Program-made: the position numbers and the translations under genes
The notes under the pieces: model-generated
Databases searched by the model: none
What the model was told of the DNA's origin: nothing
Seen by the model: only the letters and a program-made list of their open reading frames with translations
In this document: in pieces, positions 46,157-60,840 of the stretch
How positions within the stretch are numbered: position 1 is the first letter of the stretch
Layout: each line of letters opens with the position of its first letter
From: a virus
Virus record (IMG/VR): IMGVR_UViG_3300024507_000369
Coordinates: 80,883-144,882 of that record
Strand: one strand, 5' to 3'
Length of the DNA: 64,000 bases

Positions 46157-46189
46157 TTTTTTGACCGTATATATTATGTAGTAAGGATA

Positions 46190-47019: not shown

Positions 47020-47083
47020 AACCCACAATTTACGAAGTAAAAATATATTTGATTAGAGAAATTCCACCCTCAAAAGTAAAGTA

Positions 47084-48430
47084 GTGGCAAATACAAAAAC
47101 AAGCAAACCAAGTTTAGTAACTGTAGGAAATCAACAAGTAGCAGTAAAAACTGTTGTCACTGACAATGGAAATAATAATTTTTCCATACAAGTTGTAAGA
47201 AATAGCGCAACTAACCCAAGTGCAACTGGAACTGTTATTGCGGCAACAGATTCCTCAGGAAAGTTAAAGCCAACAGCAAATGCATCATCTCAAGAAAAAT
47301 TAGACATTAGCAATACAAATAGTCAATTAATAAAAGAAGTAAGAAATCAAAAAAGTGGACTTGAAGCACCTTTGGGAGTCACTGATCCAACAGCAAAAGC
47401 AGCATATAATAAGGCAGGTGGTCTTGGATCTGGAAATCAAGCAATAAATCCAGAGCAGAATAAATCCCCAGAATCTCTTCCGAGTGATGAAGCAAAGGAA
47501 GCACTATTTGGAGAATCCGAAAGTTTCAGAGAGAAGACAAGATTAAATTATGGAGATGCTAGATATCCATTAGATTTATCAATAGAATTTCAGGATTGTA
47601 TAAAGTTTACAATTTTAAATTATAGACCATCTTTAGCTGGGGGAAAAGGTGGACAAGGAAGCACCGGAGAAGTTAGTAGAATTGTCACGATTGATAAAGG
47701 AAATCCAACCATAGGTAAAGAAAGACTTGGAACCATAACTCTACCAATTCCGGCAGGAATTTCTGATAGTAATTCGGTGAGTTGGCAAGAAGATCCTATT
47801 AATAACTTTCAAGAAGCTCTCGGCAATATCACTCAAAAATATATCATAGGTGGTACGGAAGCTGCAACACCGGCAGTAGGATCTGCGACAGACACACTGA
47901 AATCTTCAGTAGATTCTGGAGATTTGCAAAGATCCCTCTCTGCCACATTAGCGGGATATGCAGCCCAAACAGATAAGCTGCAGCAGAGAGTATATGGAAC
48001 TATGTTCAATAATAACCTAGAACTGCTGTTTAATGGGCCCGGTCTTAGAACTTTTTCTTTTGGATTTAAATTATCCCCAAGAAGTCCATCAGAAGCAAAA
48101 GAAGTAATGAAAATTATTCGTTACTTTAAGCAAGCAATGTCTGTAAAAAGAAGCAAATCTTCTATTTTACTTAAAACACCAAGAACATTTGCAATATCAT
48201 ATATGTCATCTAATCAACAACATCCATACTTAAATAAATTTAAGGAGTGTGCATTGACATCAATGAATGTTGATTATACGCCAGATGGTCAATACATGAC
48301 ATATATGAGCTCAAATATAAATGAAAGATCAATGATATCATATAATCTAACATTATCTTTCCAAGAACTTGAGCCAGTATTTGATGATGAATATGGTAAT
48401 GAGCAAGTAATTACAAACATAGGTTACTAA
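47084..48430 (+). CDS. 48: gp48-like baseplate tail-tube cap
   Basis: A 448-residue protein read from a GTG start; no ATG fits the N-terminus. N-N-N-L-E-L-L-F-N-G-P, L-R-T-F-S-F-G-F-K-L-S-P-R-S and A-K-E-V-M-K-I-I-R-Y-F-K are characteristic of gp48 proteins of cyanomyoviruses. The first 150 residues are low-complexity (Ser, Asn, Lys) and longer than in T4 gp48. It would sit on the gp27 ring beneath gp54. gp53 follows one base after its stop. Confidence 0.8.
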   Translation: MANTKTSKPSLVTVGNQQVAVKTVVTDNGNNNFSIQVVRNSATNPSATGTVIAATDSSGKLKPTANASSQEKLDISNTNSQLIKEVRNQKSGLEAPLGVTDPTAKAAYNKAGGLGSGNQAINPEQNKSPESLPSDEAKEALFGESESFREKTRLNYGDARYPLDLSIEFQDCIKFTILNYRPSLAGGKGGQGSTGEVSRIVTIDKGNPTIGKERLGTITLPIPAGISDSNSVSWQEDPINNFQEALGNITQKYIIGGTEAATPAVGSATDTLKSSVDSGDLQRSLSATLAGYAAQTDKLQQRVYGTMFNNNLELLFNGPGLRTFSFGFKLSPRSPSEAKEVMKIIRYFKQAMSVKRSKSSILLKTPRTFAISYMSSNQQHPYLNKFKECALTSMNVDYTPDGQYMTYMSSNINERSMISYNLTLSFQELEPVFDDEYGNEQVITNIGY

Positions 48431-48431
48431 A

Positions 48432-49136
48432 ATGTCTTCATATTTCAGCAAACTACCAAACTTTGAATATGTTAGCAGACTACCAAATGCTGGTATATCT
48501 GACTACTCTTTAGTTAAAAATTTATTTAAGAGAGGAGTAATACGAAGTGATATTTTAGACAATTTAACTTTTTTCGAAAAATATAAAATAATTGGTGATG
48601 ACCGCCCAGATAATGTAGCATTTAAAGTTTATGAAGACTCAAGTTTAGATTGGATAATTCTTCTTTCAAATAATATTACCAACATACAAACAGAATGGCC
48701 ATTACCTCAAGATGTTTTTGATTCCCATTTAAGACAAAAATATGGATTTGATGCTGGTTTAAGTTCGGAAGAAGATATTTACAACAACATCTATAATGGA
48801 GTACATCACTACGAAACTATAGAAATTAAAAATAGTCAAGGAGTTGTAATTATTCCCGCCGGTCTTGAAGTTCCATTTAACTATGCATTAGGTATGCAAT
48901 ATTATGAAGAAACTACGGATACTATAGAAACAATTTATGAGGCAGTGAGAGTGGTAACAAATTATGAGTATGAAGAAAAAATTGAAAATGAAAAAAGAAA
49001 TATTTTTGTCCTAAAACCAGAATATATTAGTGTTGTAATCAATGATATGGAAGATATGATGGAATATAAAAAAGGTGCCACTCAGTATGTGAGCGACACC
49101 TTGAAGAGAGCTGATAATATCAGACTATATCAATAA
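48432..49136 (+). CDS. 53: gp53-like baseplate wedge protein
   Basis: A 234-residue protein. Y-F-S-K-L-P-N-F-E-Y-V near the start, R-P-D-N-V-A-F-K-V-Y-E-D-S-S-L-D-W-I-I-L-L-S-N-N near residue 57 and W-P-L-P are the known pattern of the gp53 family. In T4 gp53 holds wedges together around the hub. Last gene of the rightward group; it converges with gp32, whose stop is next to it. Confidence 0.85.
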   Translation: MSSYFSKLPNFEYVSRLPNAGISDYSLVKNLFKRGVIRSDILDNLTFFEKYKIIGDDRPDNVAFKVYEDSSLDWIILLSNNITNIQTEWPLPQDVFDSHLRQKYGFDAGLSSEEDIYNNIYNGVHHYETIEIKNSQGVVIIPAGLEVPFNYALGMQYYEETTDTIETIYEAVRVVTNYEYEEKIENEKRNIFVLKPEYISVVINDMEDMMEYKKGATQYVSDTLKRADNIRLYQ

Positions 49137-50081
49137 TCAATCTTCAGCAAGACGCTGGAAATAAGAAAGAGCATCATCTTCATCATCATCTTGAGAGATT
49201 TGAGGAAGTGAAGGAGACTTAGAACGAGCATAAGACTGTTCTAGTTCTTCTACTACACGCTCTTGAGCAGTAGGAGTTTGAGTGAACTCTTGGAGTTCAT
49301 CTTCTTGCTCAACCACTGCACGGGAACGAGCAGGAGAAGAGTTCTTGAGACCCAGTACCATATTCATACGACGCTCAAGTTCTTCATAAGACTTGAACTG
49401 GTCTGGGGCAGTGATGGCAGTAAGAGAATACTCTTTCTTCCAGAGTGCTTCGAGAGCATCATCATCATCCAGCAGAGGTTCAACCGAACCAAACTCAGAC
49501 TTATCATAGTTCCAGTAACCATCTTTCTTCACAATCTTCAGTTTGAAGTTTGCACCTTGCCAGAAGTCAAAAGGATTGATAGGAGTTTCATCCTCAAACT
49601 CAGGTTGCATTGCTTCCATAAGTTTATCAAAGATCTTCTTACCATACTTAAAGAGAAAGACCTTACCTTCGTTTGCAGGATTTGCAGGATCTTTTACAAC
49701 ATAGATGTTGCTGTAGTAAGACAGTTTACGCTTTTGTTTGCGAACAGTTTCTTTGTTAGACTCAATACCACTATTCCACAGTTCGCGGTTATATTCTCCC
49801 AGAGGATCTTTCTGACCAATAGTAGTCAGAGAGTTTTCAATATACCATCCACCATTACCTTGGAAGGCATGTGAATACATTTTTGCCCAAGGAAGTTCTT
49901 CACCTTCGGGGGCAGGAAGGAAACGGATAACTGCAAAACCGTTACCTGCTTTATCAACTTCGGGTTTCCAGAGACGCTCATCTGCACCACCTGAAGTTGT
50001 ACTCATTTTCTCAACTTCTTTTACCAGTTTAGAAGTAAGAGAACCAAGTTTGGATTGCTTTTTAAGATCAGAAAAAGACAT
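49137..50081 (-). CDS. 32: gp32-like single-stranded DNA binding protein
   Basis: A 314-residue protein. It begins with a basic Lys/Leu-rich segment, as in gp32, then W-K-P-E-V-D-K-A-G-N-G-F-A-V-I-R-F-L-P, W-A-K-M-Y-S-H-A-F and W-Y-I-E-N-S-L-T-T-I-G of the core OB fold, and ends with an acidic Ser/Asp-rich tail for partner contact. The Cys residues that bind zinc in T4 gp32 are absent here. It coats ssDNA in replication, repair and recombination and works with gp59, encoded just upstream. It has its own sigma70-type promoter. Confidence 0.9.
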   Translation of the reverse strand: MSFSDLKKQSKLGSLTSKLVKEVEKMSTTSGGADERLWKPEVDKAGNGFAVIRFLPAPEGEELPWAKMYSHAFQGNGGWYIENSLTTIGQKDPLGEYNRELWNSGIESNKETVRKQKRKLSYYSNIYVVKDPANPANEGKVFLFKYGKKIFDKLMEAMQPEFEDETPINPFDFWQGANFKLKIVKKDGYWNYDKSEFGSVEPLLDDDDALEALWKKEYSLTAITAPDQFKSYEELERRMNMVLGLKNSSPARSRAVVEQEDELQEFTQTPTAQERVVEELEQSYARSKSPSLPQISQDDDEDDALSYFQRLAED

Positions 50082-50126
50082 TAGATTTCTCCGTATTAGT
50101 AGGATTTGGCTTTTGTGTACTTCGTT

Positions 50127-50155
50127 ATTCTACAGGTCAGAACCTGTTTTGTCAA
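50127..50155 (-). promoter_or_regulatory. Sigma70 promoter of gp32 with palindromic spacer
   Basis: Minus strand TTGACA (50150-50155), 17-nt spacer, TAGAAT (50127-50132), 46 nt before the gp32 start. The spacer and adjacent bases contain the inverted repeat ACAGGT-TCTG-ACCTGT, a possible operator. The promoter overlaps the end of the upstream gene. Confidence 0.72.
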
Positions 50156-50474
50156 TCTGCTGCTTCATGATATCAAGCATTTTGGACATATTATTGAGAA
50201 TGATATTCATGTCCGTTCCCGGAGGCATTCCCATCATAATTGCAGAATTAACAATTTTTTCTTTCATTTCGACTGCTTCGGGATCATCGGATAAACTCAT
50301 TCTTGTATAAAGAACTTTTTGTTTATCTAATAGAGTTTCAAGAACTTCAACATGTTCAAGTTTTTCTTCTTTACTCATCGTAGGAAATTTAAAAATATTT
50401 CCATAGATTTGTTCTTGAAGTTCTGCAATTTCAGTCATCTCTGAGCGGACGACTTCGGAGTTAAAGAAACTCAT
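50130..50474 (-). CDS. DUF1825-like protein
   Basis: A 114-residue helical protein: F-F-N-S-E-V-V-R-S-E near the start, then L-D-K-Q-K-V-L-Y-T-R-M-S-L-S-D-D-P-E-A. The F-F-(D/N)-S-E-(I/V)-V-x-x-E start and x-Y-x-x-x-x-L-S-D/E-D pattern resemble the small cyanobacterial DUF1825 proteins, suggesting acquisition from a host. It lies between gp59 and gp32, which are usually neighbours in T4. Function unknown. Confidence 0.65.
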   Translation of the reverse strand: MSFFNSEVVRSEMTEIAELQEQIYGNIFKFPTMSKEEKLEHVEVLETLLDKQKVLYTRMSLSDDPEAVEMKEKIVNSAIMMGMPPGTDMNIILNNMSKMLDIMKQQIDKTGSDL

Positions 50475-51067
50475 TGACCCTCCAAAATAATTTCTTTTAA
50501 AATTCGCCTAAAACGAAATACATCAATATTTAGAAATGGATTATATTTTTTAATCCGACGACTGACGGTTTCCCACACTGGGTCTTGAAGTTTCTTATCA
50601 AACTTGTTCCCGAACAGGAATATTTTGTCATAGATCACCATAGTTTCTATACTAATCTTCCCGCTCAGGAACTTTTTTAGAAGAGGTGGATGTCCCTTTG
50701 AGCACTTAAAAACATCTTCAAAGTTATTATCTTCAAACAAAGATTGACTCTCTTCTCTAAAAACATAAGAAAGAGACTGAATTTTCTTTTGCCAATTTTG
50801 ATATCTTCCTTCACCCTCTTTCATCATTTCACCAATCCACAAAGTTTCTGGATCTGGACAAGAGACAAAGTTTGCAACAAAAAAGTCTATAACTTCTTGA
50901 TCAGATTTTTGCCTTGATATTTTTTCAAACCACATTCTGTCCTTCCGTTTATAAAAAGACTGAACTGTCGCTCTACTTTTACCACAGTACTTAAAATAAT
51001 CATAACTGTCTTTGGTAAAATGATTTTTCAACGACAAATAGCACTTATAGGCATCAAAAGGCATCAT
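50471..51067 (-). CDS. 59: gp59-like loader of gp41 helicase
   Basis: A 198-residue all-helical protein. A-Y-K-C-Y-L-S-L-K-N-H-F at the start, K-R-K-D-R-M-W-F-E-K-I-S and the C-terminal N-P-F-L-N-I-D correspond in order to gp59 of T4 (Y-K-L-Y-L-M-I-K-Q-H, K-R-R-D-K-Y-F-F-Q-K-L, K-I-L-N-I-D). gp59 binds fork DNA and gp32 and loads the replicative helicase. It lies in the gp33-gp59-gp32 order of T4, with one extra gene. Confidence 0.82.
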   Translation of the reverse strand: MMPFDAYKCYLSLKNHFTKDSYDYFKYCGKSRATVQSFYKRKDRMWFEKISRQKSDQEVIDFFVANFVSCPDPETLWIGEMMKEGEGRYQNWQKKIQSLSYVFREESQSLFEDNNFEDVFKCSKGHPPLLKKFLSGKISIETMVIYDKIFLFGNKFDKKLQDPVWETVSRRIKKYNPFLNIDVFRFRRILKEIILEGQ

Positions 51068-51122
51068 TCAAAAAAGTAATATAGGGATTTTTTTGCCGGG
51101 ATTTTTTCCGCCCAAAAATGGA

Positions 51123-51380
51123 TTAAAAAACCAATTTTGCACGGGAAGTTTTTTTAAGAAAGTTTAGTTCCATTGCTTCATACTTAATCTTTTCCTTCAA
51201 AGGTTTTGAAATGAGTTTAGGAACTGATTCTAAATCAATATTGTTTTGCTCACAGAAATGAACAATAGCATCAATATAATTCATTTCAACATTAACTTGC
51301 ACAAGATTTTCAATTTCTTGTGCAAATCGTGATGGACAAAAGAACTTGTTTTCTAATGCTTTTTCTAATTCATTCTCCAT
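51123..51380 (-). CDS. 33: gp33-like late transcription coactivator
   Basis: About 85 residues from the ATG at 51380, which overlaps the exonuclease stop. Residues F-A-Q-E-I-E-N-L-V and P-L-K-E-K-I-K-Y-E-A-M-E-L-N-F-L match in order the T4 gp33 segments ending in E-K-I-Q-S-E-A. The extreme end (A-K-L-V-F) is hydrophobic, as needed for binding the sliding clamp. gp33 bridges RNA polymerase and clamp at late promoters, consistent with the many late elements here. Confidence 0.75.
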   Translation of the reverse strand: MENELEKALENKFFCPSRFAQEIENLVQVNVEMNYIDAIVHFCEQNNIDLESVPKLISKPLKEKIKYEAMELNFLKKTSRAKLVF

Positions 51381-52050
51381 CTGACCCAGTATTGTGATGT
51401 ACAAATTCTTTAATATAACGAACTAATAGTTTAATATAATCCCCTTTGTTTCTTTTGTCAAATACTTTGACTTCACCGCCAGGAGTAACCATTAAAGTAA
51501 TAAGTTTTTTGACAACCTTACCAGTAAGTTCGTAGTATGCTGCAGCGTAGAATGTTTCTTGAACAAAATAGTTTTCAATCCATTCTTCTGGTTTAATTTT
51601 TTCTGAAGTCTTAAAGTCAATAACTGCTAACTCTCCTTCATATTCAGCAATACAGTCAACTCGTCCAGCAAGTCCAAGGTATTCTGAATAAAGAGTTCTC
51701 TCAATTGCATGAATATTATTTATCTTATCAAGATAAGGTTTCGCATGATGAAACATATGCTTTGTCAGGAGTTGATAATCATCCCAGACAAGTGATTTAT
51801 TTTCAAGGTAATCCTGACAGACTTGGTGAAAGTCAGTTCCTCTTGCTGTTGCCTTTTTAGTAATACGATTTGCCTCTTCAAGTCCTACACGCTTTCGCCA
51901 ATCAATAAAGATTTGACGATTATAGAATGAAGTAACTGAAGTAATTGAAGGCACCCACTGACCATCAGGAAGATTGTACAGACGGATGCCATTTGTTTCT
52001 TTCTTTTCTAATTCCAAATCACCTAGGTAATTACAATGAACAAAACTCAT
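51370..52050 (-). CDS. RecB/Cas4-type PD-(D/E)xK exonuclease
   Basis: A 226-residue protein. G-T-D-F-H near residue 71, G-L-A-G-R-V-D-C-I-A near 117, A-V-I-D-F-K-T-S near 130 and Q-E-T-F-Y-A-A-A-Y near 148 are the H, D, E/D-x-K and Q-x-x-x-Y motifs of the RecB-type nuclease family (as in MGME1 and Cas4). It is a conserved exonuclease of T4-like cyanophages and may process DNA ends in recombination or host DNA breakdown. It overlaps phoH by ATGA. Confidence 0.82.
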   Translation of the reverse strand: MSFVHCNYLGDLELEKKETNGIRLYNLPDGQWVPSITSVTSFYNRQIFIDWRKRVGLEEANRITKKATARGTDFHQVCQDYLENKSLVWDDYQLLTKHMFHHAKPYLDKINNIHAIERTLYSEYLGLAGRVDCIAEYEGELAVIDFKTSEKIKPEEWIENYFVQETFYAAAYYELTGKVVKKLITLMVTPGGEVKVFDKRNKGDYIKLLVRYIKEFVHHNTGSDGE

Positions 52051-52799
52051 ACACCAACTTCCATTTTAGCAAGAATATATTCCTTCACAAATCCAGAGCG
52101 AACAATATCATCAACTCCAAATTCAATAATATCAATTGAAGGCATCACACGAAGAACTTTCATGAAGTCAATGATTCCATTCTTCTCATTCGTCTTAATA
52201 AGATCAGATTGAGTAGCATCGCCACAGAACATAATCTTACTGTTTTCACCTACACGAGTAATTATACTATCAAGTTCATGAAAATTCAAGTTTTGGAATT
52301 CATCAACAATCACAATGGCATTATCTAAAGTGGTTCCGCGAATAAAAGAGGTGCTCCAAAAACTGATCGTTCCCTGAGTTTTAAGATTGCCATAAAGCAT
52401 CTCAAATGATGCGTCGTCTGGCATTTGGAACATATACTTTACCATATTCTTATATGGAATCTGATAAAGACTTGACTTGTCTTCATGGTCTCCGGGAAGA
52501 AAACCAATCTCACGAGTAGCAACAAGAGACCTTACAATATAAATTTTTTCGTAAGGACTTCTTTCATCGAGAACATCTTGAAGTGCATTGTAAAGAGTGA
52601 TAAAAGTTTTACCAGTTCCTGCACATCCATAAGCAACAATATTTTGTCCCTTCTCATATGCTCCATATAAAAGTTTTTGATTATCAGTAAGAGGTTCAAT
52701 ATCTCTCATCAAATCAAGACCAATTGGTTTCTTGCGTTTCATTTGTTTTGCAGTCATCCCAACACCAATTGGTTGATCCTCTCTTCTTCTTCTTGCCAT
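52047..52799 (-). CDS. phoH: PhoH-like ATPase
   Basis: A 250-residue P-loop protein. G-C-A-G-T-G-K-T at 58-65 is Walker A and A-I-V-I-V-D-E-F-Q-N near 165 is Walker B, with the I-M-F-C-G-D-A-T-Q-S-D motif near 192. These identify PhoH, common in phages of marine bacteria. Its role is uncertain: links to phosphate stress, RNA metabolism and helicase-type activity have been suggested. Followed by the exonuclease gene with an ATGA overlap. Confidence 0.92.
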   Translation of the reverse strand: MARRRREDQPIGVGMTAKQMKRKKPIGLDLMRDIEPLTDNQKLLYGAYEKGQNIVAYGCAGTGKTFITLYNALQDVLDERSPYEKIYIVRSLVATREIGFLPGDHEDKSSLYQIPYKNMVKYMFQMPDDASFEMLYGNLKTQGTISFWSTSFIRGTTLDNAIVIVDEFQNLNFHELDSIITRVGENSKIMFCGDATQSDLIKTNEKNGIIDFMKVLRVMPSIDIIEFGVDDIVRSGFVKEYILAKMEVGV

Positions 52800-52812
52800 A
52801 AGATTTTAAGAT

Positions 52813-53061
52813 TTAAACGGGTTTTACTTTAGAGCCTGGAACTTGTGATGCTTTTTTAAGAACATCATTCCATCCGGGATGAGATTTTTTAAGTCTATCA
52901 TACACTTCCCCAATATCACCAGATGATGGGCAAGTACTTGGGTCAGACCAATCTCTATCCCACTCGGGATTATCTTTTTTCCATTGATCCCAATCATGAA
53001 CACTGAGAACAACTTCTTTTTGTTCACCAGTTTGTTTATTAATCACTGGATATGTTGCCAA
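52813..53061 (-). CDS. Small conserved hypothetical protein
   Basis: An 82-residue protein read from TTG at 53061, supported by GGAGG 7 nt upstream and the absence of a better ATG. It begins M-A-T-Y-P-V-I-N-K-Q-T-G-E, like the strand-turn start of FmdB-type zinc-ribbon proteins, but the two CxxC pairs are absent. It is rich in Trp and Asp and lies between phoH and thyX. A late element (53088-53094) precedes it. Confidence 0.68.
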   Translation of the reverse strand: MATYPVINKQTGEQKEVVLSVHDWDQWKKDNPEWDRDWSDPSTCPSSGDIGEVYDRLKKSHPGWNDVLKKASQVPGSKVKPV

Positions 53062-53087
53062 TGTTACACCTCCATTGTATGTAAGGA

Positions 53088-53094
53088 TATTTAT
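53088..53094 (-). promoter_or_regulatory. Late promoter (ATAAATA)
   Basis: Minus-strand ATAAATA, 26 nt before the TTG start at 53061, overlapping the end of thyX. It could give phoH and its followers late expression. Confidence 0.55.
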
Positions 53095-53801
53095 TCAATA
53101 GTGATGGAAGGTGCATCAACACACTCAGAACACCCTTCACGAGACCAACCAAGTGCTTCAGACACTGCAGGAAACTGGCAAGTAAAGATGCAACGAACAA
53201 GTTCTGCAATTTCCATGTGTTCCTTCTGTGTACCATGAGCAGAACGAAGATCAATATAATGAATCCATGACCTTACAGAACCGGTCATATAGAGTCTTGT
53301 AGGCGTCGCTAAGGGCAGTACAAACCTTGCACACTCCTTTGCCACACCCTTCTCTAAAAGGCGGTTATAAAGGCGTAGAGACTGCTCAAAATGAACGCGG
53401 ATATCTTCTGTCAGTGTCAGTTTCAGATAGTCGGGAATATCATCAATAGAGTTCTGACGGTTCTTTGTATCTTGGCGGCGCAGTTCAGGCAGAGGAATAG
53501 TGCTATTCAGAAGATTTGTATCAGCATATCGTTGCGAAAATTCTTGATATGTAAATGAACGATGGCGAAGAATCTGAGCTGCTAGTCCACGAGTAGTATT
53601 GATTTCAACAGTCATTGAAGCTTGTTCAAAGATACTCCAGTGTTGATGTTGGATGCAATACTTGAGAAGACCAGAAAACTTATCATTATCCTGATTAGCA
53701 GGATTACTTACCCGAGCACAATATGCCATATGCTTTTCTGCATCGGGAGTAACACTAATGAGTTTTACTTCTGGTTTCATAAACTCAAAATCATCGTACA
53801 T
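53091..53801 (-). CDS. thyX: Flavin-dependent thymidylate synthase ThyX
   Basis: A 236-residue protein from the ATG at 53801, preceded by GAGGA at about 11 nt and overlapping the upstream gene; an in-frame start 42 nt earlier is less likely. R-H-R-S-F-T-Y-Q-E-F-S-Q-R-Y (residues 79-92) is the diagnostic RHRx7S motif that binds FAD and dUMP. ThyX converts dUMP to dTMP using methylene-tetrahydrofolate and NADPH, supplying thymidylate for AT-rich phage DNA. Confidence 0.93.
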   Translation of the reverse strand: MYDDFEFMKPEVKLISVTPDAEKHMAYCARVSNPANQDNDKFSGLLKYCIQHQHWSIFEQASMTVEINTTRGLAAQILRHRSFTYQEFSQRYADTNLLNSTIPLPELRRQDTKNRQNSIDDIPDYLKLTLTEDIRVHFEQSLRLYNRLLEKGVAKECARFVLPLATPTRLYMTGSVRSWIHYIDLRSAHGTQKEHMEIAELVRCIFTCQFPAVSEALGWSREGCSECVDAPSITIE

Positions 53802-53970
53802 CGTATTCATCTTCCTCGTCATAAAATACTTCGTCGTAGTCACTTAAAAAATTTTTAATTTCTTCATAGACAGGATCTTTAACCTCAGTCTCAGGTTCAA
53901 TCTCTGCTTTTAAACAATCTACCAGAGACTCAAGGTTTCTGACAATAAGTTTAAGTTTTTCTCTATCCAT
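53791..53970 (-). CDS. Small acidic protein (59 aa)
   Basis: A 59-codon frame starting M-D-R-E-K-L-K-L-I-V-R-N-L-E-S-L and ending in a very acidic Asp/Glu tail. It overlaps the thyX start and is the first gene behind the nested terminator-promoter element at 53994-54033, which gives strong support that it is expressed. Function unknown. Confidence 0.66.
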   Translation of the reverse strand: MDREKLKLIVRNLESLVDCLKAEIEPETEVKDPVYEEIKNFLSDYDEVFYDEEDEYDVR

Positions 53971-53993
53971 TTTTTATAAACCTCGACAAAGGT

Positions 53994-54033
53994 ATTATAG
54001 ACAAAAAAAGAGGTGGAGTCAAGTCCACCTCTT
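53994..54033 (-). promoter_or_regulatory. Nested terminator-promoter element
   Basis: Minus strand: a perfect 10-bp stem (54024-54033 with 54008-54017), loop CTTGAC, then a run of seven T including the end of the arm: a strong Rho-independent terminator for the gene ending at 54037. TTGACT (54017-54022) sits in the loop plus one stem base, and 17 nt later lies TATAAT (53994-53999), 23 nt before the ATG at 53970. The same 40 bp can end one transcript and start the next. Confidence 0.78.
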
Positions 54034-54036
54034 AAG

Positions 54037-54135
54037 TCATTTTGCTGCTACCAGAGTAGCAAGAGATGCTTTTTGACGCCTCTCTTCTTTTTGTTTTTGT
54101 TCTTTAATGAGTTGAAGAAAGTTTAGTTTTTTCAT
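54037..54135 (-). CDS. Very small basic protein (32 aa)
   Basis: A 32-codon frame starting M-K-K-L-N-F-L-Q-L-I-K-E-Q, fully helical and highly basic in the middle. GGAGG lies before its ATG at about 11 nt, it overlaps the upstream stop, and a strong terminator follows at once. Function unknown. Confidence 0.52.
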   Translation of the reverse strand: MKKLNFLQLIKEQKQKEERRQKASLATLVAAK

Positions 54136-54272
54136 CACTTATGCCCCTCCTTTACAAACTTAACACCACGATAGTTTTCGTTATACTGTTGGGGTTGTTG
54201 CATCATTTGCTGTTGATACTCAAGACGCTTTTGCTTGTCGTATTCAACACCGCGATAAACTACTTTTGACAT
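54135..54272 (-). CDS. Small DUF4278-like protein (45 aa)
   Basis: A 45-codon frame with AGGAG 6-7 nt before its ATG. It has Y-R-G-V-E-Y near the start and Y-R-G-V-K-F near the end, separated by a Gln-rich stretch. The Y-R-G-V-x-Y motif is typical of the small cyanobacterial DUF4278 proteins, also found in cyanophages. Role unknown. Confidence 0.62.
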   Translation of the reverse strand: MSKVVYRGVEYDKQKRLEYQQQMMQQPQQYNENYRGVKFVKEGHK

Positions 54273-54299
54273 TAGGTTTTCTCCTTAGTTTTTAGGTTA

Positions 54300-54396
54300 A
54301 AGAGCGTTCCTTCAGTCGGCGTTTCCGTTCGCTATTTGCGAATAGCGAATGAACGAATTGCGTTCCGCGTCGGCTTACTTCCGTCCTATTAGGTTT
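54300..54396. repeat. Intergenic hairpin flanked by an imperfect direct repeat
   Basis: Between genes lies a 9-bp inverted repeat (54328-54336 with 54341-54349) around a TGCG tetraloop. It is flanked by two copies of GCGTTCC ... GTCGGC (from 54304 and 54361). No T-run follows, so it is not a typical terminator. TTGCGTTCCG recurs in the psbA leader hairpin. Confidence 0.5.
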
Positions 54397-54599
54397 TAGC
54401 ACTTTACTATGAAATCCTTTCGGAGTTCTAATAACAATCGGTCCTCTATCTTTTGAATTACTACATCGTCGTTTTTAACGATGTCCATTAGTTCCATCGC
54501 GGTGTCGCAAGAAACTGCAACCTGTTGGATGCTAGATGCTTGTGGCGCTGAAACGAAGAGGAAAGGAACCCATGCTAAAAGCAAGAGTGCTTTAGTCAT
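54396..54599 (-). CDS. Small secreted protein
   Basis: A 67-residue protein with a signal peptide (M-T-K-A-L-L-L-L-A-W-V-P-F-L-F-V-S-A) and a short mature region with two Cys. A TATAAT sits just upstream near 54618-54623, with no good -35. Location in the periplasm is likely; function unknown. Confidence 0.6.
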   Translation of the reverse strand: MTKALLLLAWVPFLFVSAPQASSIQQVAVSCDTAMELMDIVKNDDVVIQKIEDRLLLELRKDFIVKC

Positions 54600-54677
54600 A
54601 GGATGAACGGTAGAGGATTATTATACCTCTATTCAACTTATATAGGAAGTTTTGTGTGTATTTCCTGATACAGTTTT

Positions 54678-55004
54678 CTATCTCTCAATATAACTTAATG
54701 TATGATTGGTAGCATAAAGTTGTTGGATAATAATATCACATCCAATCTTTGGATTACAATCACCACAAGTATAAACATCAACTGCTGCCTTACCTTCTTC
54801 TGGCCATGTATGAATGCTGATGTGACTTTCGGACAACAAGCATATTACAGTAACTCCTTGTGGTTCAAACTTTTTTGAAATTGTTTGAACCACAGTAGCG
54901 CCGCTCGCTGCTGCCGCGTTTTCCAATAAGTCTATAAGACAACGCTCGTCGTCCAAAAGGACAAACGAGCATCCATACAAATTAAGTAGGTAATGCTTCC
55001 CCAT
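54678..55004 (-). CDS. speD: S-adenosylmethionine decarboxylase SpeD
   Basis: A 108-residue protein. L-L-S-E-S-H-I-S-I-H-T-W-P-E (residues 56-69) is the diagnostic prokaryotic AdoMetDC motif: self-cleavage before Ser60 creates the pyruvoyl cofactor; His65 and Cys80 (Y-T-C-G-D-C) complete the site. It makes decarboxylated AdoMet, the aminopropyl donor for spermidine. It is a recurring cyanophage metabolic gene; polyamines may help DNA packaging or host physiology. It overlaps the upstream gene. Confidence 0.93.
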   Translation of the reverse strand: MGKHYLLNLYGCSFVLLDDERCLIDLLENAAAASGATVVQTISKKFEPQGVTVICLLSESHISIHTWPEEGKAAVDVYTCGDCNPKIGCDIIIQQLYATNHTLSYIER

Positions 55005-55216
55005 TACAACGGATTCTCCTCTGCTTCTTTAATTAATGAACTCACAATATCTTCTGTGCCATCCATTGTTTTGATAGCATACAGAGATGATTTCTTATAT
55101 TTTTTAATTTTCTTATATTGTTTTAAAACTATGTCTATATTATCTAAGTCAATAGTAATTTTGGCATCTTTACCAATTCTATTTTCTTTTCCTTGACCAC
55201 CAAATCCTGCGCTCAT
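55004..55216 (-). CDS. Small basic hypothetical protein
   Basis: A 70-residue protein: Gly-rich start (M-S-A-G-F-G-G-Q-G-K), then a Lys/Ile-rich helix and an acidic end. Placed between speD and the next gene with overlaps on both sides. No family recognised. Confidence 0.63.
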   Translation of the reverse strand: MSAGFGGQGKENRIGKDAKITIDLDNIDIVLKQYKKIKKYKKSSLYAIKTMDGTEDIVSSLIKEAEENPL

Positions 55217-55551
55217 TTTTTCTTCTTTTTCTCAGGTTGTTTGTATCCCCAAAGTTTTGGATTGGTTCTACCATATCCAAAATCAATCTTTTTAACAGCA
55301 CCTGGACCATACTTGTCATAGTACATATCAAAAAGATTTACTCGTTTAGGGCAACGAGTCAAATCAATATATTCTTCACCATCAACAAGATACCAAATTA
55401 AATATGCATCATTGGGTAGAGAAGAATCTTTTGCTTTTTCTACAGTAGTTTTTTCTAAAATAATTTCGCATCCATATTCATATGGCAGAACTTTATTAAT
55501 CTTAGTCTTATTTTCTGCCATTTTACTTTTTTCTCCTACCGCTGTACTCAT
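55213..55551 (-). CDS. Conserved hypothetical protein
   Basis: A 112-residue protein from the ATG at 55551 (M-S-T-A-V-G-E-K), overlapping the upstream stop by ATGA and preceded by a G-run. It contains Y-L-I-W-Y-L-V-D-G-E-E-Y-I-D-L-T-R-C-P and G-Y-G-R-T-N-P-K-L-W-G-Y, and ends in a Lys run. The pattern is familiar from T4-like cyanophages; function unknown. Confidence 0.7.
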   Translation of the reverse strand: MSTAVGEKSKMAENKTKINKVLPYEYGCEIILEKTTVEKAKDSSLPNDAYLIWYLVDGEEYIDLTRCPKRVNLFDMYYDKYGPGAVKKIDFGYGRTNPKLWGYKQPEKKKKK

Positions 55552-56123
55552 GAACGACCCCCCCATTGAATATCGGAGTAGGCTTCGGAAACAATTTCTT
55601 TAGTTATTTTATATTTAGTTTCAAGTCTTTTATCTTTTGTTAGAACTAAAACTTCCGCTTCTTTAGGATGAAGTCCCTCCAAAATATTAATGAACATGGT
55701 TTCTCTACGAAGAGAACTTAGTGTATCATTGCCACCTTTTACAAAGTTATAGAACATATGATACTCTCTTCGGATAGAAGACTTCCCTTGGTCCATAGAT
55801 CCAAGAGAATTGGAGTCTAACTCATCCATTTTAGAAACTGCATCATTAATTTTTCCACTTAGAGTTCCACTGTAAGAGGTTTGTTCTCCAGTGCTTGCAT
55901 ATGGAACATCACCTTCAGGAAGCAGTGAAATCACAGTATCATCAAAATTCCAAATAAAAATTGCTTTTAGGGAATCATGTTCATAAGTTTTAAGAACTTC
56001 CACTTTCTTTGCATTACTTCTTTGCTTTGATGTAAGCTCTAAAATCTCAAATATAAAAGGATTTGTGGGAAGAGTTTCAATCGGTTTTTCAGTCGTCGCT
56101 TTCTTCGTCTTCGTCGTAGTCAT
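55548..56123 (-). CDS. DUF6433-like conserved phage protein
   Basis: A 191-residue protein from the ATG at 56123. The body contains Y-E-H-D-S-L-K-A-I-F-I-W-N-F-D-D, H-M-F-Y-N-F-V-K-G-G-N-D-T-L, F-I-N-I-L-E-G-L-H-P-K-E-A-E-V-L-V and I-V-S-E-A-Y-S-D-I-Q-W-G, matching a conserved family of cyanomyoviruses that I associate with DUF6433. The L-H-P-K-E-A segment is highly conserved. No known function. Confidence 0.72.
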   Translation of the reverse strand: MTTTKTKKATTEKPIETLPTNPFIFEILELTSKQRSNAKKVEVLKTYEHDSLKAIFIWNFDDTVISLLPEGDVPYASTGEQTSYSGTLSGKINDAVSKMDELDSNSLGSMDQGKSSIRREYHMFYNFVKGGNDTLSSLRRETMFINILEGLHPKEAEVLVLTKDKRLETKYKITKEIVSEAYSDIQWGGRS

Positions 56124-56322
56124 AATCGTAATCGTTTTCAAATCGTACAGATACTATTTCGTCAGGAATCACCTGCCCATTTTCATCAAAGAACTCTGGA
56201 TGTAAATATGGAGGTTTTGACTCCAACAAATGCCTATAAGTTAACCAACCTATTATACCTCCTACCATAAAAAAGAGCAATGTGAACATTGTAACGAATG
56301 TTATTACATATGCTGTTTCCAT
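56089..56322 (-). CDS. Small membrane protein with acidic tail
   Basis: A 77-residue protein: one membrane helix at residues about 6-28 (V-T-M-F-T-L-L-F-F-M-V-G-G-I-I-G), a conserved-looking P-P-Y-L-H-P-E-F-F-D-E-N-G and a tail of alternating Asp and Tyr. It overlaps the DUF6433-like gene by about 35 nt. Likely inner-membrane; function unknown. Confidence 0.68.
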   Translation of the reverse strand: METAYVITFVTMFTLLFFMVGGIIGWLTYRHLLESKPPYLHPEFFDENGQVIPDEIVSVRFENDYDYDYDEDEESDD

Positions 56323-56340
56323 TTTTCTTCTCCAGAGAGT

Positions 56341-56547
56341 TTATTTTTTCCTAATATCAAAATGAAATTCTATAAAGAAATGAAACTCTCTACGGAAGAG
56401 AGAAATCATTTTACCAAACTTCACTTGAAAAGTCTTTGGCGTTGATGATTTTCTCCTCCTATTGCGTAGTAATAATTCAACACCCCTATTAATTTGAGGT
56501 TCTGACTTATTTAGTTTGCTTCTTTCTCCTTCCTGGTCTTTTGTCAT
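56341..56547 (-). CDS. Small basic conserved hypothetical protein
   Basis: A 68-residue basic protein from the ATG at 56547. The end K-T-F-Q-V-K-F-G-K-M-I-S-L-F-R-R-E-F-H-F is a pattern I recall from other cyanophages. It overlaps the upstream gene by about 40 nt. Function unknown. Confidence 0.62.
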   Translation of the reverse strand: MTKDQEGERSKLNKSEPQINRGVELLLRNRRRKSSTPKTFQVKFGKMISLFRREFHFFIEFHFDIRKK

Positions 56548-56866
56548 GATTATATCTCCAGGCATCTTCAAGAATACCGTAAAGGTAATTTCTTATTTTT
56601 CTTGCTTGTGGTTTTGGAATATGTCCATATCCTTCACGAAGTTGTTTATGAATCTCATCTGATCCACCCTCAAGATAATCATCCAAATCCATTACAAGAT
56701 TACTCAGCTCGTGTGCTGTATTACTTTCAATAAATTGTTCAACCTCTACTTTTTTAGTTCCACGAACTTTTAGATAATCATAAAAACTCAAAACAAATTG
56801 ACCATTGAAAGCATAATCAATTGCTTTTTCTACATCGTTACAAACTTCGTGAATGGTGTTTTCCAT
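56507..56866 (-). CDS. Conserved hypothetical protein
   Basis: A 119-residue protein from the ATG at 56866, which overlaps the glutaredoxin stop as TAATG. It is helical with R-G-T-K-K-V-E-V-E-Q-F-I-E and ends in a basic R-R-K-K-Q-T-K tail. No domain recognised. Confidence 0.68.
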   Translation of the reverse strand: MENTIHEVCNDVEKAIDYAFNGQFVLSFYDYLKVRGTKKVEVEQFIESNTAHELSNLVMDLDDYLEGGSDEIHKQLREGYGHIPKPQARKIRNYLYGILEDAWRYNHDKRPGRRKKQTK

Positions 56867-57102
56867 TAAACTAGATTTTGCTCCTTTAGATATTGAACAG
56901 TATCGGTGCATCCACCAATGTGTTGGTCATTTACAATCACTTGAGGAAAGGTAGATCCCTCTCCGAATTCTGAATAAAATTCTTCTCTACTAAAATCACT
57001 ATTCAATTTGTAGACTACATGTTGCAGTTGTGCCAACTCTAGCACCTGTTGAACTTTTGTGCAATATGGGCAACCATCTTTTGAATAAACTGTGAACTTC
57101 AT
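56866..57102 (-). CDS. Glutaredoxin
   Basis: A 78-residue protein from the ATG at 57102. The redox site is C-P-Y-C at residues 11-14, followed by T-F-P-Q-V near 55 (cis-Pro) and I-G-G-C-T-D near 64, all standard for glutaredoxins. It probably reduces ribonucleotide reductase or other phage proteins using glutathione. The gene overlaps neighbours at both ends. Confidence 0.92.
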   Translation of the reverse strand: MKFTVYSKDGCPYCTKVQQVLELAQLQHVVYKLNSDFSREEFYSEFGEGSTFPQVIVNDQHIGGCTDTVQYLKEQNLV

Positions 57103-57230
57103 TTTTTTCTGCAATTTTGTGGAATATTTATAGAAGATTTATTATAAGTCTTTACTGGTGGTCTGTAAAGTCCAGGCCATGTATCACGAATAATTTCTGC
57201 GAGTTTGTATGGTGTTGTAGAAGTTATCAT
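57099..57230 (-). CDS. Small hypothetical protein (43 aa)
   Basis: A 43-codon frame (M-I-T-S-T-T-P-Y-K-L-A-E-I-I-R-D-T-W-P-G) overlapping the glutaredoxin start by ATGA and the stop of the 24-codon frame upstream. The P-Y-K-L-A-E-I-I-R start looks like a real folded segment. Function unknown. Confidence 0.58.
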   Translation of the reverse strand: MITSTTPYKLAEIIRDTWPGLYRPPVKTYNKSSINIPQNCRKK

Positions 57231-57301
57231 AAGTCCTGCATAACAGATAATATAAACATTAGGATTCCAAAAAGTTGGAAGAGAACTAAGATGAGAAGCA
57301 T
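57227..57301 (-). CDS. Very small membrane peptide (24 aa)
   Basis: A 24-codon frame made almost entirely of hydrophobic residues (M-L-L-I-L-V-L-F-Q-L-F-G-I-L-M-F), a single membrane helix. It overlaps the next start as ATGA and the end of the endonuclease gene by about 15 nt. Length makes it uncertain. Confidence 0.4.
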   Translation of the reverse strand: MLLILVLFQLFGILMFILSVMQDL

Positions 57302-57855
57302 TTGAGGTTTTCTACTAGGAGTTCTAATTCTTGTAGGGATGCGTCCCATTTTAGGGCATTCGCTCTTGAAGATATAACCCAAATATTATCGGGGGTATAT
57401 CCTTTACCAGGAACCTTTTGATCTAAACTAGGATTTCTTGGATCTCTTTTATCATTAGTAGATACAAGAGGTATTCCAAGTAAAGGACAAGTTTCTGGAA
57501 TAATAATATCATCTATAGTTATACTAAATGGAATACCCTTTCTTTTTGCCCTATGTTGAGCATTATGAAACATACTATATCTTCTATCGTCTTTTTTTAA
57601 TTCACCTTCTGGTTTCTTTTTAGTTTTATTAAAAGCAATAGTAGTTTCTCTCCTAACACACCCACAACTAGTAGTTGAACCATTCATAAGACCATATCTC
57701 TCGCAAGTTTTTTCTCCACCACATTCACATTTACAAGTTGAATAAACTCTATTCTTCCCACTCTTAAAGACTACTTCTTCTTTCAGGACAGTAAGTTTTC
57801 CAAATTTTTTACCAATCAAAGCACCACAAGGTTTTGATTTATTATTTAAGGGCAT
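57286..57855 (-). CDS. HNH-type homing endonuclease candidate
   Basis: A 189-residue protein. The N-terminal part has I-G-K-K-F-G-K-L-T-V-L, then C-K-C-E-C-G-G-E-K and S-C-G-C, a zinc-binding DNA-contact region common in phage homing endonucleases. The C-terminal part has C-P-L-L-G-I-P-L, S-L-D-Q-K-V-P-G-K-G-Y-T-P-D-N-I-W-V-I-S and R-A-N-A-L-K, as in HNH-type nucleases that lack the usual His pair. It lies next to psbD with its own exact late promoter. Confidence 0.72.
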   Translation of the reverse strand: MPLNNKSKPCGALIGKKFGKLTVLKEEVVFKSGKNRVYSTCKCECGGEKTCERYGLMNGSTTSCGCVRRETTIAFNKTKKKPEGELKKDDRRYSMFHNAQHRAKRKGIPFSITIDDIIIPETCPLLGIPLVSTNDKRDPRNPSLDQKVPGKGYTPDNIWVISSRANALKWDASLQELELLVENLKCFSS

Positions 57856-57880
57856 TATCCTAACTTTGAATATCTATTAT

Positions 57881-57888
57881 TATTTATA
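57881..57888 (-). promoter_or_regulatory. Late promoter (TATAAATA)
   Basis: Exact late octamer on the minus strand, 25 nt before the endonuclease ATG at 57855, between it and the psbD terminator. Confidence 0.7.
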
Positions 57889-57913
57889 TTTTATCATACT
57901 TTGGGTCTTATGT

Positions 57914-57944
57914 AAATAAAAAAGACCCCAACAATGAGGTCTTT
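57914..57944 (-). terminator. psbD terminator
   Basis: Minus-strand 7-bp stem AAAGACC/GGTCTTT (57938-57944 with 57921-57927) followed by a T-run, four bases after the psbD stop. Confidence 0.75.
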
Positions 57945-57948
57945 AAAA

Positions 57949-59010
57949 TCAAAGTGCGTTGCCCCGAGGCAAAACTTCCTCTGGAAAAACAAAATTTTCA
58001 TGTGGTTGGTCTACGGGAGCCATCCAAGCACGAAGCCCTTCGTTAAGAAGTATATTCTTCGTGTAGAAAGTTTCGTATTCCGGATTGACGGCTGCTTCAA
58101 TCTCCTGACTAACAAAGTCGTAAGCACGAAGATTGAGAGCAAGACCGATAATCCCGATAGAAGATGTCCAGAGACCCATGACGGGAACAAAGAGCATAAA
58201 GAAATGTAACCAACGCTTGTTACTAAAAGCAATTCCAAAGATTTGCGACCAGAAACGGTTAGCAGTAACCATTGAATAGGTTTCTTCCTCTTGTGTTGGT
58301 TCGAATGCCTTGAATGTATTTGCTTGATCACTATCTTCAAATAGTGTGTTTTCTACAGTTGCTCCGTGAATAGCACAGAGCAGTGCTCCACCCAGTATAC
58401 CAGCAACACCCATCATATGAAATGGGTTAAGAGTCCAGTTGTGAAAACCCTGAAGGAACAGAAGGAACCTGAAGATAGCAGCAACACCAAAGGAAGGTGC
58501 AAAGAACCAACTGGATTGACCCAGAGGGTACATCAGGAAGACGCTCACAAACACTGCGATGGGACCAGAGAATGCAATTGCGTTGTAAGGACGGATGCCT
58601 ACCAGTCGTGAGATCTCAAACTGGCGAAGCATAAATCCGATCAGACTAAAGGCCCCGTGGAGCGCCACAAAAGTCCATAGTCCCCCAAGTTGGAACCACC
58701 TGACGATATCCCCTTGAGCCTCAGGACCCCAGAGCAGAAGAAGAGAATGACCCATAGAATCTGCTGGAGTACTAACTGCTGCAGTAAGAAAGTTTGCACC
58801 CTCAAGATAGGAACTCGCAAGCCCGTGAGTATACCAACTCGTGACGAAAGTTGTCCCAGTAATCCAACCACCAAGAGCAAGATAAGCAGTGGGAAAAAGA
58901 AGAAGTCCAGACCAGCCAACAAAAACGAAACGGTCTCTTTTAAGCCAGTCATCGAGTACATCAAACCATCCTCGTTGTTGAATAGGTTGTGAAAGTGTAG
59001 AAGAAGTCAT
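57949..59010 (-). CDS. psbD: Photosystem II reaction-centre protein D2
   Basis: A 353-residue D2 protein of normal length with five membrane helices. With a one-residue offset, Tyr161 is the redox-active TyrD, His190 its partner and His198 the P680 ligand; M-H-G-A-T-V-E-N and the iron/quinone His segments are also present. The end (V-L-P-R-G-N-A-L) is the normal D2 C-terminus. Phage D2 with D1 renews photosystem II during infection. A sigma70-type promoter overlaps a late element upstream, and AAGGAGGT precedes the ATG. Confidence 0.97.
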
Positions 59011-59031
59011 AACCTCCTTAGTTATTTCTCA

Positions 59032-59065
59032 TATTTATCTTAACATTCCTTAACAAAGTAGTCAA
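59032..59065 (-). promoter_or_regulatory. Composite sigma70/late promoter of psbD
   Basis: Minus strand TTGACT (59060-59065), 17-nt spacer, TAAGAT (59037-59042), immediately overlapping late ATAAATA (59032-59038). The late element is 21 nt before the psbD ATG. psbA has the same arrangement. Confidence 0.7.
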
Positions 59066-59078
59066 TGAGTGTTTGTGC

Positions 59079-59201
59079 TTATCCCCAATACATCTGACCG
59101 AGAGTGAATAAGACAAATACAAGAACTGTAAATACCATCATACCTACACCTGCCCAGATGATCCAGGGTTCCATAGGATGATGTTGATTATTATGAGACA
59201 T
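59079..59201 (-). CDS. Small membrane protein upstream of psbD (40 aa)
   Basis: A 40-codon frame: polar start rich in His and Asn (M-S-H-N-N-Q-H-H-P-M-E-P-W), then one membrane helix (I-I-W-A-G-V-G-M-M-V-F-T-V-L-V-F-V-L-F) and a short L-G-Q-M-Y-W-G end. It sits between a terminator and the psbD promoter. Its form is like small photosystem or cytochrome b6f subunits, but I cannot match it to one. Confidence 0.6.
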   Translation of the reverse strand: MSHNNQHHPMEPWIIWAGVGMMVFTVLVFVLFTLGQMYWG

Positions 59202-59227
59202 AAAAAAAGAGGGTTGTTACACCCTCT
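59202..59227 (-). terminator. Rho-independent terminator
   Basis: Minus-strand 7-bp stem AGAGGGT/ACCCTCT (59221-59227 with 59208-59214) followed by a run of T, directly before the 40-codon gene and after the psbA-like remnant. Confidence 0.7.
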
Positions 59228-59252
59228 AATTATATCAGTTATTCAGTTGTTA

Positions 59253-59312
59253 TCAACCAATTGAAGGTGCAGTGAGAGCAACAGGAGTTGCTTCAGAAAA
59301 CTGAGGATAGGT
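59253..59312 (-). pseudogene. psbA 3'-end remnant
   Basis: On the minus strand the frame ending at the stop 59253-59255 reads [13 protein letters not shown], the typical end of D1. The intact psbA in this window ends [12 protein letters not shown]. Ten of the last eleven residues agree, with several synonymous changes. Upstream (T-Y-P-Q-F-S) the match ends and there is no start codon. It is followed by a terminator, as a gene end would be. It looks like a leftover of a second or former psbA. Confidence 0.75.
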
Positions 59313-59324
59313 TTTTATTATTAC

Positions 59325-59352
59325 TTGACTTTTTGATAATTTATGATATAGT
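59325..59352 (+). promoter_or_regulatory. Sigma70-type promoter
   Basis: Plus strand TTGACT (59325-59330), 16-nt spacer, TATAGT (59347-59352), 42 nt before the ATG at 59395. It drives the single rightward gene in this region. Confidence 0.7.
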
Positions 59353-59394
59353 TTCTTAGTGGAAACACACATCACACACATTAGGAGAATATCT

Positions 59395-59598
59395 ATGACA
59401 CCTTATGAACTTCGATTTGAAATCTTTAAGCAAGCATATAATATGCTTAATGACCAGTTTAGCATGGAATATGATACTGCTGTTCGTTGGAATGAAGATG
59501 AGAACAAAAAAGTAGCAATGGATTATCCAGAGTTTCCAACACTTAATCAAGTTCTAGAACAAGCAGAAATCATTAATGATTTTGTAAGTTCCAAATAA
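59395..59598 (+). CDS. Small hypothetical protein, own early promoter
   Basis: A 67-residue protein from the ATG at 59395, chosen for the AGGAG site about 9 nt upstream. It is helical and acidic (M-T-P-Y-E-L-R-F-E-I-F-K-Q-A). It is a complete monocistronic unit with its own promoter and terminator, pointing against the neighbours. No family recognised; an early host-directed function is possible. Confidence 0.72.
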   Translation: MTPYELRFEIFKQAYNMLNDQFSMEYDTAVRWNEDENKKVAMDYPEFPTLNQVLEQAEIINDFVSSK

Positions 59599-59602
59599 AG
59601 TT

Positions 59603-59631
59603 AAAGGAGGGTTTTATCCCTCCTTTTTTAT
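59603..59631 (+). terminator. Rho-independent terminator
   Basis: Nine-bp stem AAAGGAGGG/CCCTCCTTT (59603-59611 with 59618-59626) followed by a T-run on the plus strand, just after the stop at 59598. It also lies at the end of the converging leftward gene stopping at 59631 and may serve both. Confidence 0.78.
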
Positions 59632-60365
59632 TATCTTTTGTTTCTATTATAAGTTGCTCTTACAGCATCAAAAGATACTCTATCCTTTTCCTTTTCATCA
59701 TCGGGAAGATTTGAATATGATGTATTAGCAAGTTTTGCTCTTCTTTGTTTCTTTTCTGGTGTTTGGTCTGTACTTGTTTTAGCAGTTCTTGCCCAACCCT
59801 GATGAACTGCATCAGCACCTGCTTCTCTTGAAGTTCCACTACCACTTCTTTCACCTCTTCTAATAGCACGAAGGGCAGCGGCAGCAGATGAACGATTTGC
59901 TGCTCTACCGAAAGAACGCTTATCACCAGATGCTCTACCATATCCATATCTTTTATCTAATGCAGCATCAGATGCTTTCTCATAAGGACTATCCTCTCTT
60001 TCTATAATATTGTCTCTCCACTCTTCACTCATATTCACCATAATTGCTTCTGCTGCTTGTTGAGTATCAGCATATCCTTCATCAAGTAAGTGTGAAAGAA
60101 TTAGATCGTAAACATCTACTTCTTCTTTTGCTAAATCAGAATCGACACGAACATTTGAACCTGTTCTTACATTTCTTCTTGCTGCTGCCTGATGAGCGCG
60201 GCGTCTTGCCATCCAAGCACCACTTATACCACCACTATCTACATCTTGTGCATCTCTCTTTCTTAACATTCCTTTGACTTTTCTATCAGAGATTTCATCC
60301 AGTTGCTGATTTTCAACAACTTCCATATATGCTTCTTGAAGATTGCGAAGTTCTTGTGCGTCCAT
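59631..60365 (-). CDS. Cyanophage protein with VDVYDLILSHLLDEGYAD motif
   Basis: A 244-residue hydrophilic protein. V-D-V-Y-D-L-I-L-S-H-L-L-D-E-G-Y-A-D (residues about 84-101), followed by T-Q-Q-A-A-E-A-I-M-V-N-M-S-E-E-W, is a block that recurs in several virion-related proteins of T4-like cyanophages. The rest is rich in Arg, Ala and Ser and probably disordered. A CTAAATA element 20 nt upstream suggests late expression. Structural or capsid-internal role is possible but not shown. Confidence 0.68.
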   Translation of the reverse strand: MDAQELRNLQEAYMEVVENQQLDEISDRKVKGMLRKRDAQDVDSGGISGAWMARRRAHQAAARRNVRTGSNVRVDSDLAKEEVDVYDLILSHLLDEGYADTQQAAEAIMVNMSEEWRDNIIEREDSPYEKASDAALDKRYGYGRASGDKRSFGRAANRSSAAAALRAIRRGERSGSGTSREAGADAVHQGWARTAKTSTDQTPEKKQRRAKLANTSYSNLPDDEKEKDRVSFDAVRATYNRNKR

Positions 60366-60380
60366 TTTTATGAATACTTT

Positions 60381-60743: not shown

Positions 60744-60769
60744 TATGGTATGGAAGTTTGGTATGGAAC

Positions 60770-60776
60770 TATTTAT
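60770..60776 (-). promoter_or_regulatory. Late promoter (ATAAATA)
   Basis: Minus-strand ATAAATA, 26 nt before the endonuclease ATG at 60743 and just after the -10 of the nested element. Confidence 0.62.
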
Positions 60777-60778
60777 GA

Positions 60779-60815: not shown

Positions 60816-60840
60816 CATTCTTATTCAGTTTTTATAAAAC

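Follow-up and report, generated by a model that had tools for sequence, protein, structure and literature searches.

Four intergenic sites in the window

The window analyzed here makes up the final 64,000 bases of a virus record that is 144,882 bases long. It carries thyX and psbA, and its td region resembles that of T4-like Synechococcus and Prochlorococcus phages. The sequence-only reading had described four places in it where a terminator hairpin and a sigma70 promoter share the same bases. All four were found where it had placed them, on the minus strand and with 17 nt between the -35 and -10 boxes in each, and all four are indeed situated between two genes of the same strand, past the end of one and ahead of the start of the other.

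Site A (53994-54033) consists of a hairpin with a 10-bp stem and the loop CTTGAC (54033-54008), a -35 box TTGACT (54022-54017), a T-run, and a -10 box TATAAT (53999-53994). It separates a 32-aa ORF predicted from the sequence (54037-54135), which also occurs in the related locus L028, from a 59-aa ORF (53791-53970) ahead of thyX (53091-53843), both ORFs being on the minus strand. Site D (60779-60815; hairpin 60815-60794, -35 TTTACA 60807-60802, -10 TATTAT 60784-60779) lies between psbA (60841-61920) and an endonuclease VII-like ORF (60381-60743) that comes directly after psbA, again all on the minus strand. The homing endonuclease F-CphI annotated in S-PM2 likewise comes after psbA. Searching Rfam families at the gathering score gave three matches in the window and none at the four sites; among the three is a PhotoRC-II RNA (RF01717, 84.1 bits) upstream of psbA (61957-62050, minus strand).

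Site B (1379-1415) is built from a hairpin (1415-1393), a -35 box TTTACA (1407-1402), and a -10 box TATACT (1384-1379). The protein encoded after it had no match in named phages. The ORF ahead of it (1437-2222, minus strand) weakly matches a homing endonuclease family (phrog_314, E 2.1e-06). Site C (6924-6956) has a hairpin (6956-6932), a -35 box TTGACT (6952-6947), and a -10 box TATAGT (6929-6924), and represents a second geometry: the -10 box starts at +3 past the hairpin core, whereas it starts at +10 or +11 at the other sites, and it directly follows a short T-run of four T. The earlier placement of the -35 box in the hairpin loop needs correction: at sites A, B, and D the box takes up the loop together with the uppermost part of the stem, and at site C it lies in the ascending arm.

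A GC-rich hairpin with an immediately following T-run, the mark of an intrinsic terminator, is present at the sites, the run at site C being four T long. The calculated RNA folding energies of sites A, B, C, and D are -15.6, -14.2, -15.1, and -13.3 kcal/mol, with z values of the hairpin folds between -3.66 and -5.04 relative to shuffles.

The pairing exceeds chance expectation

We scanned the window with a strict terminator definition (a minimum of 7 bp and 4 G-C pairs in the stem, and of 5 T in 8). The scan returned 15 terminators, and a nested promoter was present in exactly the four sites named above. Among 120 dinucleotide-preserving shuffles of the window, 118 contained no composite and 2 contained one (mean 0.017 versus 4 observed). 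When the real terminators were kept and the promoter was sought at other offsets, 0.40 composites were expected against the 4 seen. Looser scans of the window add weak matches at 10271-10300 and 59291-59306 on the plus strand and at 63628-63589 and 58427-58408 on the minus strand, which were left uncounted.

Relatives were taken as the best 80 loci retrieved with thyX and the best 80 each retrieved with the ORFs adjoining sites D, B, and C. Together with the window they amount to 321 sequences (4.21 Mb) with 633 unique terminators; identical hairpins were collapsed in such counts, near-identical phages were still included, and many contigs are close kin, so that the counts overstate independence. 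Lack of enrichment in related genomes had been named beforehand as a refuting outcome; the comparison was run, and enrichment was found. A paired promoter with its -10 box at +2 to +14 past the hairpin core accompanied 160 of the 633 terminators, falling into 117 groups at 75% identity. The offsets peaked at +10 (53), +11 (35), and +3 (22), the last being the geometry of site C with 22 unique terminators, and lesser counts were obtained at +8 (13), +9 (10), +13 (9), and +7 (8). Each of the background offsets (-40 to +1 and +15 to +59) held at most 8. The 17-nt spacing was used by 45 of the 49 composites of the first set.

Cyanobacterial DNA behaved differently from that of the phages. A composite with its -10 box at +10 to +12 was present in 46/169, 26/217, 14/125, and 14/136 terminators of the td, D, B, and C sets, respectively, and in none of the 187 unique terminators from the best 80 cyanobacterial psbA loci. 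With TATAAT-like -10 boxes at +7 to +13, the counts were 213/629 for viral terminators (window excluded) versus 6/187 for cyanobacterial ones. A -35 box lay 16 to 18 nt from that -10 in 123 of the 213 viral cases versus 0 of the 6 cyanobacterial cases, leaving 90 viral -10 boxes without a -35 at the threshold used.

Composites also made up 29 of the 145 terminators in five long phage contigs (1.09 Mb). Twenty genome shuffles yielded 2, and about 3.7 were expected from other offsets. These 29 composites tend to sit at gene boundaries: an ORF end was near the hairpin in 22 (random, 26%), an ORF start was near the -10 box in 21 (random, 20%), and an ORF of at least 80 aa spanned the site in 5 (random, 42.5%). 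Some of them have weak boxes, such as AAAAAT. The promoters are recognized as matches to a consensus, their -35 boxes vary (TTGACT, TTTACA, TTGCGA, TTGAAA, and others), and stem sequences differ between composites within one genome. In a 204,829-base contig, to which three window proteins matched at 100%, the same four composites were present together with two outside the window.

The element occurs in named isolates

The td loci of 11 named isolates were inspected, and 8 of them carry the element. Five were detected by script (Sf-FR1, S-H9-2, S-SCSM1, S-MbCM7, and P-TIM68), and three were recognized by eye from a hairpin, a T-run, and a -10-like box (P-SSM2, Syn1, and S-SKS1). No element was found at the td loci of Sf-CH5, S-SSM7, and S-T4. 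Several of the isolates with td composites are Kyanoviridae by their records.

Longer stretches of isolate genomes were scanned as well. The looser scan gave four matches in 50 kb of SynMITS9220M01, of which one, with the boxes TTGCGA and TATAAT and located at the td site, was counted. It gave one match in 50 kb of S-PM2 and one weak match each in S-CRM01 (78.6 kb) and Syn9 (50 kb). Four matches were obtained in 36 kb of S-SRM01. The strict scan of a further 18 kb of S-PM2 found no nested composite.

Conservation and compensatory changes at the td site

Conservation was followed at the td (thyX) site, where 64 of the best 80 loci were testable; the other 16 lack 550 nt of upstream sequence and were left out. 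The strict element of site A is kept in 41 of the 64. In six more, the hairpin, the T-run, and a -10-like box are present and the loop or -35 has diverged (L048, L049, L051, L053, L056, and L064). A terminator without a -10 box is present in seven (L057, L060, L065, L067, L070, L071, and L072), and neither terminator nor -10 was found in ten, indicating that the terminator-promoter pairing is dispensable at these loci. As a separate observation, an ATG stands immediately after the T-run in each of the seven.

We aligned 14 td sequences, hand-picked from scanner hits and hence containing hairpins by construction, and analyzed stem covariation. Both sides had changed in 7 of 10 pairs. Cells with both sides changed numbered 25 versus 10.8 in shuffles, and the covariation score was 0.480 versus 0.248. 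Sliding the partners by +2 columns still left 77.9% paired with a score of 0.405, which is high because the loop is displaced in 4 of the 14. Within the largest td class, the final base of the -35 box itself covaries with its stem partner, being A-T in 11 and T-A in 3 of 14 unique sequences.

An upstream dyad accompanies some of the promoters

A dyad with the consensus KGRCASTT-N4-AASTGKCM is located at a fixed distance upstream of TATAAT-like boxes in the window, in contigs G001, G002, G003, G006, and G007, and in S-PM2 (L483) and S-SRM01 (L484). Upstream of site B, the dyad at 1417-1436 (minus strand) agrees with 15 of the 16 consensus positions. The one upstream of site C (6961-6980, plus strand) agrees with 13, which is below the counting threshold of 14. 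No dyad with at least 13 of 16 positions adjoins site A or D. The earlier view that geometry and not copying is conserved is thus correct only in part, as sites B and C have the upstream dyad in common. Another dyad lies at 5792-5811 of the window. A related site predicted from the sequence (10102-10158, minus strand) combines a dyad (10158-10139), a hairpin (10132-10111), and TATAAT (10107-10102), with no recognizable -35.

At the threshold of 14 of 16, the five contigs contain 177 dyads versus 18 in one Markov control; these counts take both strands of a near-palindrome, include some places twice, and use a consensus drawn from the same genomes. TATAAT-like boxes matching 5 of 6 positions were found 57 times at +50 to +53 from the dyad start and at most 4 times at each of the other offsets from +20 to +119. 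When 4 of 6 positions were allowed, 88 of the 177 dyads had a box, and an intrinsic terminator lay between the two in 20 of the 88. The 18-kb S-PM2 stretch holds six dyads with a TATAAT-like box. Some dyad-type promoters have a hairpin around the -35 and no T-run. The dyad may mark a regulated class of cyanophage promoters.

Possible gene gain and exchange next to the element

Comparison of td loci revealed differences in gene content at the element. In L001, a single element stands between the 32-aa gene and the ORF preceding thyX. In L028, an element, an extra ORF (3653-4054; 133 aa if begun at ATG, 152 aa if begun at a TTG farther upstream), and a second element lie between these two genes. 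By eye, the resemblance to L001 is greater on the left side for the left copy of L028 and on the right side for the right copy. A similar arrangement is present in L015 (3557-4042), with a different ORF and a different left neighbor. Neither of the extra ORFs had a Pfam match above the cut-off. Of 861 pairs of td loci, 244 are similar over the 300 nt upstream of the element and 584 on its downstream side, a comparison that is biased by the downstream position of the bait. In the manner of PeSLs (see below), the element may mark sites of gene exchange.

Interpretation and alternative explanations

The geometry, the enrichment, the placement at gene boundaries, the conservation at the td site with compensated stems, and the absence from the examined cyanobacterial loci are all visible in the DNA itself. 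On this basis, the sites are probably composite intergenic cassettes in which a host-type sigma70 promoter has its -35 box within a terminator hairpin. We infer that both halves are functional, that the outcome is insulation and re-initiation, and that the promoters are early ones. An RNA polymerase arriving from the upstream gene would make the hairpin and stop in the T-run, near the start of the -10 box. The T-run lies within the promoter spacer, and the -10 box comes 17 nt past the -35. The same DNA would then act as a promoter and recruit free or recycled polymerase with sigma, and the next transcript would start a few bases on, ahead of the start codon of the next gene. Polymerase might be handed over directly at the nested element, and one that is waiting on the promoter could in addition act as a barrier to read-through. 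A fuller version, namely that cyanophages possess a distinct nested class in which a terminated polymerase remains at the promoter just transcribed and is passed, recycled, straight to the next gene, and that in a large subset the upstream dyad adds regulatory control and defines a hitherto undescribed promoter class in variable gene regions, is a tentative proposal that we regard as doubtful.

The T-run of a terminator in AT-rich DNA could simply continue into a TATAAT-like word. The window does have a GC content of only 36.4%, and promoter-like matches in 44001-64000 number 71 versus 59.8 in shuffles (sd 8.4), a slight excess only. Such chance adjacency is nevertheless extremely unlikely, given the sharp offset and the -35 box kept at 17 nt, and the pairing fails to arise in shuffles, at other offsets, or in cyanobacterial terminators. 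As a general account it is refuted statistically, and lone weak sites elsewhere may still be due to chance. It is also very unlikely that the terminator alone works and that the boxes are relics or go unused during infection. The often imperfect -35 boxes and the seven td loci with a terminator and no -10 would fit such a situation, but the -10 box is kept while the stems diverge, and the last -35 base changes together with its stem partner.

Alternatively, the palindrome might overlap the -35 as the DNA operator of a dimeric regulator, with the terminator function being incidental. Hairpins around the -35 without a T-run, as in some dyad-type promoters, and the spacer hairpins without a T-run in RB49 are in line with an operator. 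The stems, however, differ between loci and show compensating changes, which suits RNA pairing and not a fixed protein site, and the T-run is on the promoter's own strand, making an operator quite improbable. That the element serves chiefly in recombination, as a site where genes are swapped, and is maintained by exchange and not by selection on transcription, is suggested by the two copies around an ORF in L028 and L015 and by the lower similarity of td pairs upstream than downstream. We consider it unlikely, as stems that differ within one genome offer little common sequence to recombine, and the td bait lies on the downstream side of that comparison. An attenuator or leader belonging to the downstream gene was dismissed on logical grounds: transcription is expected to begin downstream of the hairpin, so the hairpin would not be part of the new transcript.

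If the reading as a terminator hairpin containing a promoter -35 is correct, it would yield a sequence-based rule for recognizing the boundaries of cyanophage transcription units, together with a compact natural part for stopping and restarting transcription in about 40 bp. It would broaden the idea of the PeSL to include cyanophages, with a layout that is new. It would also offer a natural test of whether cells use polymerase recycling, so far an in vitro observation, and would make the sites in P-SSM2, Syn1, S-H9-2, S-SCSM1, and S-MbCM7 candidates for RNA-end mapping.

Comparison with PeSLs and polymerase recycling

Studies of PeSLs (promoter early stem-loops) reportedly dealt with phages RB49, phi1, PST, and nt-1. 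The sequence-only reading knew of no named element of this kind, a statement that has to be withdrawn: as titles and citations indicate, PeSLs are composite promoter-terminator motifs of T4-type phages, published in 2010 (Arbiol) and 2014 (Comeau), and the titles of these papers tie the motif to modular gene shuffling. The literature listings openly available contained these PeSL citations and a discussion of S-PM2, and no description of the nested layout was found among them. In passages of two further reports (PMC1524935, PMC3037559), promoters as well as terminators are described for T4-like phages and for cyanophages, and no composite is among them.

For S-PM2, excerpts of PMC4503421 consider stem-loops and an early promoter as possible PeSLs and give the stem-loops and the promoter separately. 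According to the same excerpts, S-PM2 has a lower PeSL density than its T4-like counterparts, and acquisition of the ORFs in question by way of PeSLs is judged unlikely. One of the stem-loops published there (11369-11391) is immediately flanked by a dyad (11349-11368) on one side and a TATAAT box on the other. The segment 11349-11391 of S-PM2 (10494-10536 of L483) may thus belong to a composite missed by the strict scan.

Restarting is also known from work on intrinsic termination. In excerpts of a single-molecule study (PMC6978380), the polymerase often stays on the DNA after termination and can restart nearby, and post-termination recycling of RNA polymerase is also treated in PMC6978322. 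The likeness lies in the restart at a nearby promoter, with the difference that here the terminator and the promoter occupy the same bases. Moreover, recycling was demonstrated in vitro with E. coli polymerase, whereas the present element is known from its sequence.

We compared the layout with stretches of three T4-type phages. In RB49 (150 of 164 kb), the promoter comes after the terminator, with the -10 box at +33 to +45, in 11 of 41 terminators, and the nested layout is present in 1 of the 41. Other intergenic promoters of RB49 have a GC-rich hairpin between the -35 and the -10 and no T-run (L082 and L084). The cyanophage sites, with the -35 inside the terminator hairpin, fit neither of the layouts measured in RB49, a promoter after the terminator or a spacer hairpin. 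None of 9 terminators in 35 kb of T4 and none of 19 in 50 kb of KVP40, mostly structural genes, has the nested layout. The nested layout is common in these cyanophages and rare in the examined stretches of RB49, T4, and KVP40. Judged by sequence, the cyanophage sites resemble PeSLs in combining a sigma70-like promoter and a stem-loop terminator in one short unit of T4-like phages, and one td locus here likewise has an ORF between two copies. The composite is, from the evidence of conservation and enrichment, real and conserved as a nested variant of the PeSL-type element, and the sites are probably the cyanophage counterpart of the PeSL in a tighter, nested layout.
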